Shown in pieces: positions 3,224-14,315 of a DNA stretch of 64,000 bases. Below the pieces are notes generated by a model. That model was given only the letters and a program-made list of their open reading frames with translations, was not told where the DNA came from and did not search any database. The position numbers were made by a program, and so were the translations under genes. Source of the stretch: Bacteroidota bacterium (GTDB lineage: Bacteria > Bacteroidota > Bacteroidia > NS11-12g > UBA955); the NCBI GenBank assembly GCA_016787485.1, contig JAEUUL010000026.1, positions 1 through 64,000 on the forward strand. Direction: 5' to 3'. Positions within the stretch are counted from its first letter, which is position 1. Every line of letters begins with the position of its first letter.

Positions 3224-4303
3224 ATGGCCTACGAAATTACAATTCGCAAAACGGAAAACAGCCGGATTTCTTCCCTGGATGTTGAAAATATCGGGTTTGG
3301 AAAAATTTTCGCCGACCACATGTTTGTGGTTGATTACGATGGAAAAACCTGGACGGATGCGCGAATAGAGCCCTATGGCAACATGGAACTGAGTCCGGCT
3401 ACCAGCGCATTGCACTATGGGCAATCCATCTTCGAAGGGATGAAAGCTTTCGCCGCGAATGGCGAAGTCCAATTGTTCAGACCCATCGAGAATTGGAAAC
3501 GGCTGAATATATCTGCACGCAGGATGGTTATGCCGGAAATCCCTCAAGACCTTTTCATGCAAGGGCTCAACACCCTGCTGGATCTGGATCGTGCCTGGGT
3601 GCCTGCCGCTGATGGCTGCAGCCTTTACATACGTCCGTTTTTGTTTGCAACCGATGATTTTGTGGGTGTTCGTCCGTCTGAAAAGTACCGGTTTTGCATT
3701 TTTTGCTGTCCGGTAGGACCTTATTATAGCAAACCCCTCAGGGTGAAAGTAGAGGAAGACTACAGCCGTTCTGCACCTGGAGGCACAGGTTATACCAAAT
3801 GTGCCGGAAACTACGGGGCAAGTATGTTTCCCACCAAAAAAGCACAGCAGGAAGGTTATGATCAGGTATTATGGACAGACCCGGTGACGCATAAGTTTGT
3901 GGAGGAAACCGGCACGACCAACTTTTTTGCCGTTTTCCACGACAAAATTGTCACCCCAGAATTGGATGAAACCCTTCTGGCCGGTATTACCCGCAACAGC
4001 GTCATACACATACTCAAACATTTGGGTCATACGGTAGAAGAAAGAAAACTATCCGTGCAGGAACTTAAAGACGCACTGCAGGCAGGTGAGTTGAAGGAAT
4101 TGTTTATTACAGGAACGGCGGCAACCATGATTTATCTGGAAGGATTTGGTCACCATGGCACCTATTACGATGTAATCGCAAATGGAAACCATACCATAAG
4201 CAACCAGGTAAAAGACCTCATGGAATCCATCCGCTACGGACGTGGTGCCGATCTATTCCAGTGGATGACCCGCGTGGAAGCAATGAATGAAGTCCCTGCC
4301 TGA
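3224..4303 (+). CDS. ilvE: Branched-chain amino acid aminotransferase
   Basis: PLP-dependent class IV (fold-type IV) transaminase that interconverts Leu/Ile/Val and their 2-oxoacids with 2-oxoglutarate/glutamate; cytosolic. It is 359 residues, the usual length of the longer bacterial/eukaryotic-type BCATs. Visible motifs: SALHYGQSIFEGMKAF around 61-76, YIRPFLFATD around 135-144, and GYTKCAGNYGAS around 189-200, with the PLP Schiff-base lysine expected at K192. The later EETGTTNFFAVF and GITRNSV (about 230-270) are class IV PLP-phosphate-binding signatures. ATG start; a -7 element lies just upstream. Transcribed alone, convergent with the T9SS cargo gene at 4327. Confidence 0.95.
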   Translation: MAYEITIRKTENSRISSLDVENIGFGKIFADHMFVVDYDGKTWTDARIEPYGNMELSPATSALHYGQSIFEGMKAFAANGEVQLFRPIENWKRLNISARRMVMPEIPQDLFMQGLNTLLDLDRAWVPAADGCSLYIRPFLFATDDFVGVRPSEKYRFCIFCCPVGPYYSKPLRVKVEEDYSRSAPGGTGYTKCAGNYGASMFPTKKAQQEGYDQVLWTDPVTHKFVEETGTTNFFAVFHDKIVTPELDETLLAGITRNSVIHILKHLGHTVEERKLSVQELKDALQAGELKELFITGTAATMIYLEGFGHHGTYYDVIANGNHTISNQVKDLMESIRYGRGADLFQWMTRVEAMNEVPA

Positions 4304-4326
4304 TTGGGAAAAACAGAACTGCCGGA

Positions 4327-5829
4327 TTATAAAATCTGCAGCAGAACAGGAGTTGATGTGTTGGTGCGGATGATGTAAATGCCGGCTGACAATTGCGGCA
4401 ATATATTCTCACCTTTTTTCAGTTTCAACAGTACCTTACCCTGCATATCTGTCAGGTATATTTCACCTTCCTGCAAAAGTGCAGAAAGTGTGTGTCCGGA
4501 TTGAACCGGATTGGGGTAAACCCTGAGCTGAGGTTTGGTTACCCTTTTTTTTCCAAGGCTGAAGTCCGAATTTCCGTATAACTCTGTAATTCCTTTCAGA
4601 AACACAGAAAGTCTGGCGGAATCGGGTTTATCGGGTATCACGGTCACATGTGCATCGGAAACCCTGCAGGCACCGGGTAACAATTCTACCGCAGAGGTAC
4701 TTAGTATTCCGGTGCGGTGTCCGGGAATGTTACCGGCAGAATCTTCATTCCATGCTGGCTTTCCGGTAAAGGCAGGGTCAGTACCATTGCTGTAAACATA
4801 ACTGGCCGGGAATGTGATATCCAGTCCCGAGCCGCCATAACCCAGAGATGAGCCGGTTTTCCAGCAGCCATTGGCAAAATGGTAAAAGTGTGCTGCCCTT
4901 ACAGGTTGGCCTTTTACCGCATCTCCACCCGCTTCATAATAAATGCTGGAGGAAGTTTTACCAGACAACCAACCTGCACTCACCACCGGCCACCGGGGGC
5001 CATAAACAGCATCATTTGCAGGACCATTGAAACTGTAAATGGATTGGCGGGTAACATGTGTACCCAGATAATTGTCTTCAGAATTGCCCAATTGAAAGTC
5101 GGCAACAAGGCTTGTGCGGCAATTATGCAAAGTGTCGGCACCCCGGTTACAAACTGTTATTCTTGCCCATGCAGTGTATTGCAACAGGGTATCTGATCCG
5201 GCAGGTTTGAACCAGATGGCAGAAATATCTACAGGCATAGCCAGGGTTTTCAAATTGGATTTGTTAAGAGAATCCGAGCCCATGGCCCATACATTGTCCG
5301 AACCCGGCAAATAAGGGTAATCACCCTGTAAAGGATCGTATTTTTGATTTGCGTTCACATCCGCAAAGGGTGCACAACGCGCCGGAAATCCCGGTTTGCT
5401 GAAACTGCCGGGCCAGTTTGTAATGGATGAAAGAGGTGTATAACCTGCATCTTTATAATGGCTGCGGTGATCCTGCACATCCCTGGCAGAAATCTGTAAT
5501 ATTCTTGGCCATTCAGCGCCAGATACGTGCTGGCCTCCGCTGCCGTAGGGCCCTTCACACCAATGTGTAGCAATGCTGCGGGTTTCCTCACAGGCCACAA
5601 GGGTGTCGCTGCCCTTACCCAATGCAGTTACCCAAAATGCCAAGCGGTTCAGTGCGAATTTTCCCGAAGCTGCCGGATATTCCACTGCAGGCTTCTGGAC
5701 AAAACCGAGGCTGCCCACGCTGTTGATTTTTACACCCAGTTTACCCCAGGTGCGTGAAATAAGTGAATCCTGCGCTGCGACTGACCTTGCAGTAAAAAAT
5801 AAAATGAAAATGAAGAAATTTCTAAGCAA
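4327..5829 (-). CDS. Secreted protein with C-terminal T9SS sorting domain (sigma-cassette cargo)
   Basis: A 500-residue exported protein: signal peptide about 1-19 (MLRNFFIFILFFTARSVAAQ) and a C-terminal type A sorting domain from about 428 (LRVYPNPVQSG ... GKVLLKLKKGEN ... GIYIIRTN), so likely sent across the outer membrane by T9SS. The middle has DVNANQKYDPLQGDYPYLPG, an Asp-rich, possibly Ca-binding stretch common in Bacteroidota surface proteins; no catalytic domain recognised. The only plausible start is TTG at 5829, since no ATG occurs until well past the signal peptide. The preceding gene ends with TGA at 5833-5835 in the same frame, one codon upstream, so translation is probably coupled. 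Last gene of a sigma / membrane protein / cargo cassette. Confidence 0.8.
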   Translation of the reverse strand: MLRNFFIFILFFTARSVAAQDSLISRTWGKLGVKINSVGSLGFVQKPAVEYPAASGKFALNRLAFWVTALGKGSDTLVACEETRSIATHWCEGPYGSGGQHVSGAEWPRILQISARDVQDHRSHYKDAGYTPLSSITNWPGSFSKPGFPARCAPFADVNANQKYDPLQGDYPYLPGSDNVWAMGSDSLNKSNLKTLAMPVDISAIWFKPAGSDTLLQYTAWARITVCNRGADTLHNCRTSLVADFQLGNSEDNYLGTHVTRQSIYSFNGPANDAVYGPRWPVVSAGWLSGKTSSSIYYEAGGDAVKGQPVRAAHFYHFANGCWKTGSSLGYGGSGLDITFPASYVYSNGTDPAFTGKPAWNEDSAGNIPGHRTGILSTSAVELLPGACRVSDAHVTVIPDKPDSARLSVFLKGITELYGNSDFSLGKKRVTKPQLRVYPNPVQSGHTLSALLQEGEIYLTDMQGKVLLKLKKGENILPQLSAGIYIIRTNTSTPVLLQIL

Positions 5830-12894: not shown

Positions 12895-13332
12895 TTAACC
12901 GTTTGCCCCTGCATCATACTCTACCATCCATTCTATACCATACTTGTCTCTGAACATGCCAAAATACACACCCCATGGGCTTTCGCCAATGGGGGCCTCT
13001 ATTTCGCCACCAGCAGAAAGACCGTGAAAAAGGGTATCTGCTTCTTCCCTGCTCTCCGTGGATAGGGTGATTTTACTCCGGTTTTCATTTTCATTGACCA
13101 CACCCATAATCTCCGGCACATCGTTTGCCATTAAAAAACTGTTTTTGCCAATGGGAAGCTCAATGCGCAGGATTTTATCCGCCTCATGTTCTTTAATATG
13201 ACTGGCCATTTCAGAAGGCAAATCCCTGAAACGGATGATGCGTGTGAACTCTCCGCCAAATACTGATTTGTAAAACCGGAAGGCCTCTTCGGCATTGCCG
13301 TTAAAATTGATATAAGGATTGATTTGTGCCAT
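12895..13332 (-). CDS. VOC-superfamily (PhnB-like) protein
   Basis: A 145-residue cytosolic protein of the PhnB / '3-demethylubiquinone-9 3-methyltransferase' branch of the vicinal-oxygen-chelate superfamily. The two beta-alpha-beta-beta-beta modules are visible: INPYINFNGNAEEAFRFYKSVFGGEF (1-28) and FHGLSAGGEIEAPIGESPWGVYFGMFRDKYGIEWMVEY (about 103-140), the classic PhnB ending. Enzymatic activity in this branch is mostly unproven. It heads a run of small same-strand genes (with those at 13908 and 14369) but is separated from them by the repeat element. Confidence 0.9.
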   Translation of the reverse strand: MAQINPYINFNGNAEEAFRFYKSVFGGEFTRIIRFRDLPSEMASHIKEHEADKILRIELPIGKNSFLMANDVPEIMGVVNENENRSKITLSTESREEADTLFHGLSAGGEIEAPIGESPWGVYFGMFRDKYGIEWMVEYDAGANG

Positions 13333-13419
13333 TTTAATTTTTATAAACTGATTAAATTTTCAATATATATAATCTGACTATCAGGTAGATTAAACAATCT
13401 ATATTCATAATATCGGTTA

Positions 13420-13809
13420 TCCACTTTTGGCTTGAACCAAAAGTGGAGCAAAAGTTCAAGGCTTCAGGGTCTGAAGTCTGAACATTTGCAACCCGTCGAA
13501 TGCCATCGGCGATCTCCTCGATTCCTCGGAGCTTCCTTGGCATTTCGCGCCGGCTTGCTGCACTTATCAGCCTTCATTCCCTGAGGCCGGGCCGAGAAAA
13601 TGGATGCTGTGGCGGCTTTTCATACCGCTAAATCTTGCTTATCCGTTTTGCATCCCTGTAAGACGGCCCCGCAGCGCGAGGAGGGCAGCGCAGCCCGCAG
13701 TGAAACGGAGGGCGCAAGCTGGCAAGCTGCCCGGACAGGCCTGCGTTAGGAAAGGCGCCTTGGGCCGTCTGCCTTTTGGGCTCCACCTTTTTTGGCGAAA
13801 AAAGGTGGA
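13420..13809. repeat. Candidate interspersed repeat bounded by palindromes
   Basis: A non-coding, more GC-rich block of about 390 bp bounded by two perfect hairpins with related termini. The left one (13420-13447) has 11-bp arms TCCACTTTTGG/CCAAAAGTGGA around a 6-nt loop. The right one (13782-13809) has 12-bp arms TCCACCTTTTTT/AAAAAAGGTGGA around GGCG. Inside are more palindromes, such as CTTCAG/CTGAAG at 13462-13476 and TGCCA/TGGCA at 13501-13542. From memory, very similar sequences recur between genes in many Bacteroidota genomes and give rise to spurious small-protein annotations; I cannot verify that here. Looks like a REP/MITE-type element. Confidence 0.6.
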
Positions 13810-13907
13810 AAAAATGACAGTTTGGGCAATAGATTTTCCATGTATGGGTATTGTGCAATCTTCCAATAGTCATAGTATGTAATTTTCTAATCCTTTTGCA
13901 GCTGAAA

Positions 13908-14315
13908 TTACTTTGCCCGCATTTTATTCCCTTTGGGATCATGGGTTACTTCCGCCAGCCCCAAGGCCTCCATCAATGGGGGGATGTACATCCCAAAGCG
14001 TCCGCGCAGTCCTTTTTTTAAACCATACCATCCTTTTACCGGGTTGCTTTCTGAACGGCCCCAGGCCTCAACGGTCCCTTCCTTTGCAGGTTTTTGTTCG
14101 TCTGCACTGCCCAGTTCCATCCAGTCACCGTGTTCTTTCAGCATCCTGTGCAGGTCATCCAGGCAGCGTAAATCATAATGCAAAACCGTTTTACCCACAG
14201 TGCATACCAGCACTTCCCTGCCATCTTTTTCATCCACATGCATGGTGTATTCGCTGGTCAGTGGCGGCGTTTTCAGTGTTAAGGGTTTTTCTTTTGTTCC
14301 GATGTTGTAAGCCAT
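13908..14315 (-). CDS. Small conserved Bacteroidota protein of unknown function
   Basis: A 135-residue cytosolic protein starting MAYNIGTKEKPLTLKTPPLTSEY. It has a compact beta-rich N-terminal half with VLVCTVGKTVLHYD, then LDDLHRMLKEHGDWMELGSADEQKPAKEG and a basic end WYGLKKGLRGRFGMYIPPLMEALGLAEVTHDP. The pattern looks strongly conserved and matches a small uncharacterised family I recall from Bacteroidota genomes, but I cannot name the domain with certainty. It sits 53 nt from the DUF1801 gene on the same strand; such small genes often travel together with VOC proteins. Confidence 0.75.
   Translation of the reverse strand: MAYNIGTKEKPLTLKTPPLTSEYTMHVDEKDGREVLVCTVGKTVLHYDLRCLDDLHRMLKEHGDWMELGSADEQKPAKEGTVEAWGRSESNPVKGWYGLKKGLRGRFGMYIPPLMEALGLAEVTHDPKGNKMRAK

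Follow-up and report, generated by a model that had tools for sequence, protein, structure and literature searches.

Architecture of the intergenic block and its copies in the genome

The window, that is the whole 64-kb stretch of DNA analysed here, carries a block of 390 bp (13420-13809) bordered by a glyoxalase-like gene (12895-13332, minus strand) and a DUF6855 gene (13908-14315, minus strand). The block consists of two facing structured units, each of which begins with an outer hairpin. The left hairpin (13420-13447, plus strand) is perfect, with 11-bp arms, 6 nt between them and the loop CTTGAA, and the right one (13782-13809, minus strand) is equally perfect, with 12-bp arms and 4 nt between them; both possess the feet TCCAC/GTGGA. 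The initial annotation had reported two perfect palindromes with TCCAC...GTGGA termini, and both hairpins are indeed there: a pattern describing both feet has two matches in the 64-kb window and none in 100 dinucleotide shuffles. The further internal palindromes that it had also reported turned out to be long, nested helices and not perfect palindromes.

Read on the plus strand, the left unit (13420-13588) comprises the outer hairpin, a short A-rich linker, the motif TCAAGG and a long, imperfect, interrupted stem (13449-13588) with a conserved internal loop and a conserved tip. The hairpin loop CTTGAA (13431-13436) is complementary to TTCAAG (13455-13460), so that the segment 13431-13460 (plus strand) may form a pseudoknot or an alternative helix. 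The tip (13507-13537, plus strand), YGGYGATCTCCT...CGGAGCTTCCT, is the most conserved stretch, with invariant columns in alignments A1 and A3, and reads GTGATCTCC...GGAGCTTCC in many relatives. The stem scored 159.8 bits with the covariance model R1, of which the window copy is itself a member, and is supported by compensatory changes. A middle part (13589-13659), variable among the aligned copies from the same genome, separates the left unit from the convergent right unit (13660-13809), which was modelled on the minus strand as its own outer hairpin and, after it, a long stem with the closing sequences AGACGGCCC/GGGCCGTCT. The coordinates 13420-13809 delimit the structured pair alone; a weak inverted similarity extends beyond it, between a left flank (13350-13414, plus strand), partly common to another copy in the genome (L008), and a right flank (13832-13892, minus strand). 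This similarity scores 41, a value that 5 of 2000 shuffles also attained, as did 2 of 3000 random pairs.

Folding of the block gave a z-score of -3.2 on the plus strand (0/100 shuffles as good) and -4.4 on the minus strand (1/100 as good). No Rfam family matched at its gathering score anywhere in the window or in the loci of 12 relatives, and a permissive Rfam search returned four weak eukaryotic matches, all under their gathering scores and none credible. Two overlapping open reading frames of 92 and 104 aa lie on the block, neither with a Pfam match.

Counting the window copy, 14 places in the 3.41-Mb assembly matched at E<1e-30, in agreement with the earlier expectation of a multicopy repeat. 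These represent eight pairs of a left and a right unit (the window copy counted), three left-only and two right-only copies, the pair at C9:43342-43897 being reported as two places since extra sequence splits it. The 13 other places are 73-91% identical to the window copy, and the model found 11 left units in the genome at E<=2.6e-24 plus one weak one. Aligned with one another, the copies are homologous across both units and vary in the middle, and small palindromes are set within their linker or hairpin loop; the element is modular. Examples are the palindrome CCCGATAGCTATCGGG in the linker (among copies L004, L007, L010/L012 and L011) and an insert of roughly 35 nt (CCCGA...CAGGGA or similar) in the left hairpin loop (among L002, L004, L005 and L007). 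The genome also encodes two Y1_Tnp proteins, L053 (C34:269228-269557) and L054 (C41:50494-50856), beside whose genes the palindromes GCCCTGAAAGGGC and TTGTTGGTGCC...CACCAACAA were observed.

With a simple ORF caller, 33 of 48 unit placements were free of any overlap exceeding 40 nt with a call of at least 70 aa, 14 shared sequence with calls of 71-163 aa, and one fell within the start extension of a 544-aa frame. The flanking genes occur in every combination of directions. The remark in the initial annotation that such sequences give rise to spurious small proteins was borne out once: a Parabacteroides distasonis record has a hypothetical protein annotated on top of a unit.

The window copy is short, lacks a transposase gene and has several dispersed copies, as MITEs do. 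A target-site duplication, which the initial annotation had proposed to look for, was found for it neither by a loose scan nor by a strict rule (CA...TG ends, 9-bp duplication, at most one mismatch). Among 12 loci of the same genome the strict rule yielded 0 matches and the looser scan a single one, L011, whose flanks carry a longer direct repeat; this left-only copy (C38:135062) has a repeat beginning AGGGTTTTGCACT on both flanks. The window copy is MITE-like and not a proven MITE, its mobility being assigned from relatives; the copies in this genome are old, which makes erosion of their ends plausible.

Conservation of the predicted fold

The initial annotation had named covariation as a check, and compensatory changes were found in both units. 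For the left unit, a MAFFT alignment of 17 units displayed double compensatory changes in 17 of 39 predicted pairs. In 45 model-aligned units double changes affected 33 of the 39 pairs, 92.7% of cells could pair and the covariation score was 0.599, whereas shuffles gave 0.154 and slid partners no more than 0.128. These figures lean towards structure, since the model served both to find the units and to align them. Matches of the model on the reverse strand (L041, L043, L001 and L010) are included in alignment A4 and excluded from A5 by a stricter E-value, a cut that also removed L133 and the second unit of L098, both of which we take as real. For the right unit, double changes were seen in 12 of 27 predicted pairs (15 sequences).

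When the hairpin, the loop pairing and the core were considered together in 15 units, 24 of 55 pairs showed double changes; the last pair of the loop helix was doubly changed in five of these units and unpaired in three. Of 182 distinct modules from all loci examined, 178 had a loop CTTGAN complementary to the downstream N'TCAAG. The combinations at loop position six were A/T (10/10), T/A (35/35), C/G (133/136) and G (0/1), many of the C/G cases being fixed by the search pattern for the 5' module and many modules coming from the same genome.

Near-invariant G-U pairs point to the plus strand for the left unit and to the minus strand for the right unit. Once two such pairs are set aside, the left unit has 29 G-U and 31 A-C cells and no strand bias; its strand preference thus rests on these two pairs, and good folds of the block were obtained on either strand. 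With compensatory base changes in both units, the block qualifies as a candidate structured non-coding RNA, the transcript itself being putative. What lies between the ends of a mobile repeat is usually considered free to decay. Here an interior fold has been kept by compensatory change over several families while the sequence was largely replaced, which implies that something selects for the structure.

Distribution and signs of mobility in relatives

In DNA searches that each included the own genome, matches came from 7 of 38 close relatives (E<=0.001) and from 8 of 108 genomes of the order (E<=1e-5). In the class, the left-unit model R1, run with strict filters, matched 13 of 395 genomes at E<=0.001 (own included), or 9 of 197 genera, and 14 chosen genomes held 0 to 28 copies each at E<=1. 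A relaxed pattern for the 5' module retrieved 111 stretches from GTDB r220; the 80 listed among them are all named Bacteroidota or Balneolota, with many from Parabacteroides and Tannerella forsythia. Relatives found by the model or the pattern share the same fold at widely differing sequence, and in several of the 5'-module stretches the core looks, by eye, like another class with the tip AACTC...TCAAACAG. A 30-mer typical of the other right units of the genome was present in no GTDB r220 record scanned; the 30-mer is absent from the window copy itself, and the own genome may be missing from that scan. The statement in the initial annotation that near-identical sequences occur in many Bacteroidota is borne out only partly, the relatives being diverged. 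IMG/VR held no contig with the exact pattern, no phage matched the element, and plasmid matches were confined to three P. distasonis records, with none for the window query.

Convergent pairs also occur in other genomes (L143, L145 and L136/L137) and around a gene for the small protein 'smalltalk' in a P. distasonis record. P. distasonis carries three units between HU-family and 'smalltalk' genes in three paralogous cassettes; there (L327-L329) the unit begins shortly beyond the stop codon of the HU-family gene, ahead of the 'smalltalk' gene, and in L328 a second, convergent unit follows the latter. Nineteen similar units, some truncated, were aligned from T. forsythia, and three tandem units about 350 bp apart were observed in another genome (L156, G001 C22). 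Among 365 ORFs near 111 loci no neighbour was widespread; small clusters were found, the largest of 8 ORFs.

Two syntenic genomes, G462 and G478, have units at the same place, and one of them possesses a composite of about 510 bp, flanked by GTACCTT, that the other lacks; the difference may be an insertion or a deletion. In another unit shared by these two genomes (L144 compared with L145), one of them is without the core, lost between AATCAA repeats in what looks like replication slippage. L145 also carries, beside an imperfect palindrome, a 350-aa frame (3640-4692, minus strand) for a putative IS110-family transposase, which L144, though syntenic, lacks.

Signs of mobility were found in relatives. 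The 577-bp element L032 of G023, a genome of the same family as that of the window, has the ends CACATCTGTCCAAAA / CACTGCTGTCCAAAA and the 9-bp duplication AGCTGGAAC, and its unit scored 158.5 bits with a model that includes it. In G213 and G302 the end pattern TTGTYCGATWAAAA gave 11 and 5 matches, respectively, and none in reversed controls; a longer end pattern occurred in 14 of 395 genomes, with no reversed-control match shown. Nine elements with paired repeats were recognised in G213 and G302 (eight distinct ones from the end-pattern matches, L340 repeating L339 and being counted once, plus L372), five of which bear exact 9-bp duplications (L331, L332, L337, L344 and L343); L372 agrees at 8 of 9 positions, and L333, L336 and L339 have paired ends and no target duplication. 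The model, run on all nine, found the unit in L343 (E 1.8e-8) and L339 and weakly in L336, so that L343 is the only one of the five with exact duplications in which it was found. L331, L332, L333 and L372 match the tip motif, and the model found a unit in a further locus, L334, of which one end was located.

L343 and L032 thus combine terminal inverted repeats and an exact 9-bp target duplication around the unit, as IS4-type MITEs do. Less clean is the 310-bp element L164 of G138 (at the same place as L117), with the ends CATTGGCGTCAAATT / CATTGGCTTCAAGTT, repeats agreeing at 13 of 15 positions, a unit of 36.2 bits and nine common flanking bases, CGATACTTC, with one extra base on the left. Under the strict rule, 13 of 15 other loci gave no match, including L164 on account of its extra base, and the matches of L137 and L162 were unconvincing. 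G412 and G266 contain very small elements of 121-247 bp whose ends are similar and whose 9-bp duplications are exact (L349, L361, L366, L367 and L373), and in these five the model detected no structured unit. In the T. forsythia copies, judged by inspection, such ends were not noticed.

A candidate source of transposase was found as well. In G255 the frame of an IS4-family transposase (164 bits; cut-off 115) ends beside such a terminal repeat. G213 has three relatives of this frame that are intact, one more that contains stops, and a distant match that is partial. Two loci of G213, L380 and L383, are complete 1401-bp elements with similar ends, each bearing one intact transposase, and have the make-up of an autonomous insertion sequence; the IS protein scored 194 bits as IS4 transposase against the cut-off of 115, and one of the two elements, L383, is flanked by a 9-bp duplication, TTTATAAAA. 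A search at E<=1e-5 with a single protein, the IS4 protein of L359, matched 4 of 12 genomes; it found nothing in the own genome or in G023, which has the clean element.

Interpretation and comparison with known systems

We consider the block, with a probability of about 0.63, to be an old copy of a dispersed, non-coding and non-autonomous mobile element of two convergent structured units, moved in the manner of IS4 elements. The copies in this genome would have spread as those of the relatives did, and their outermost ends would since have disappeared; movement of such elements would depend on an IS4-type DDE transposase provided in trans. The initial annotation had left the choice between a MITE or REP-type element and a structured RNA; the conserved fold and the MITE-like ends of some relatives speak for the MITE and the RNA, and the REP-type reading found no support.

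A competing explanation is that the structured unit is itself mobile by another route, for instance a single-strand or RNA-mediated one, and was captured secondarily by IS4-type MITEs in some lineages. It would account for the left-only and right-only copies of the genome, the 19 similar and partly truncated T. forsythia units, the tandem units of G001 and the elements of G412 and G266 that have similar ends without the unit. We think it less likely, as no precise empty site was found for a bare unit (no clean one in the T. forsythia and P. distasonis searches) and as the unit lies within repeats and a 9-bp duplication in two lineages cleanly and in a third less cleanly. These duplications also bear on the idea of a structured non-coding RNA or cis-regulatory family that was inherited or duplicated together with its neighbourhood and is not itself mobile. 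Retention of the fold and loop motifs through compensatory change, the three P. distasonis units in paralogous cassettes and the units at the same place in G462 and G478 would suit such a family, which we nevertheless think unlikely given the intergenic copies in all orientations and the absence of a widespread neighbour near the 111 loci.

REP/BIME elements and REPINs are inverted pairs of palindromic units between genes, and movement of a repeat of this type by a Y1 (RAYT) transposase might be suspected from palindromic intergenic repeats in a genome with two Y1_Tnp genes. This origin was rejected as very improbable: both Y1 genes adjoin other palindromes and, by eye, no TCCAC hairpins, the units exceed REPs of 20-40 nt by far in length and complexity, and target duplications occur in some relatives. 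A coding or chance origin, to which the overlapping frames of 92 and 104 aa might point, is next to negligible, since neither frame has a Pfam match and the copies differ by single-base indels and compensatory changes.

As to what an IS4-type element with such an interior might do, two convergent units, each seemingly folding on the strand read inwards, suggest transcripts entering from both sides. With less confidence than in the mode of movement, we propose that the fold would form in a putative RNA read inwards from each end (plus strand for the left unit, minus strand for the right), and that this folded RNA may shield or regulate read-through transcripts or act as a small RNA. The read-through transcripts of the IS4-family members IS10 and IS50 are folded protectively and offer a possible precedent. 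The hairpin and the pairing of its loop may represent a pseudoknot or a switch with two states. The structure may instead act at the DNA level, for instance by binding protein when extruded; we favour, with modest confidence, a role of the putative inward transcripts at the RNA level. More tentative is the broader proposal of an undescribed, Bacteroidota-wide superfamily of structured RNA modules, carried as cargo by IS4-type MITEs, often in convergent pairs, whose RNA would function in regulation, propagation or both. In practice, the covariance model can annotate, in Bacteroidota genomes, a repeat that is open to misreading as a protein gene, and the co-occurrence of the MITE and the IS4 element in G213 makes mobilisation directly testable.

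From REP/BIME elements and REPINs the element differs in the length and complexity of its units, and no RAYT partner was found for it. The initial annotation named no described mobile element of this kind, and our searches of open-access PubMed Central papers brought up no description of it. BrickBuilt of Porphyromonas gingivalis resembles it as a Bacteroidota MITE with predicted stem-loops; according to the parts of its description consulted, BrickBuilt contains an internal minisatellite of 23-nt repeats, has no BLASTn matches beyond P. gingivalis and ends in GAGACCTTTGCA, from which the terminal repeats found here differ (PMC4596501). MITECca01 of Cardinium is likewise a Bacteroidota MITE with its parental IS in the genome; it is an IS982-family element of about 240 bp, and the portions of the report consulted mention no structured core (PMC9769881). 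Structured-RNA candidates from the human microbiome include palindromic ones in Bacteroidetes, which, compared by the description in the sections consulted, might overlap with the element (PMC8040213). IS4-family MITEs are also close: like them, the elements of the relatives are short, lack a transposase gene and have terminal inverted repeats (CAYTR..TGTCC) and 9-bp target duplications, and G213 also holds an IS4-family insertion sequence with similar ends. The copies of the window genome differ from such MITEs in being without demonstrable ends, and the element as a whole in possessing a structured core, backed by covariation and present in many families, that the model does not find in the insertion sequence.
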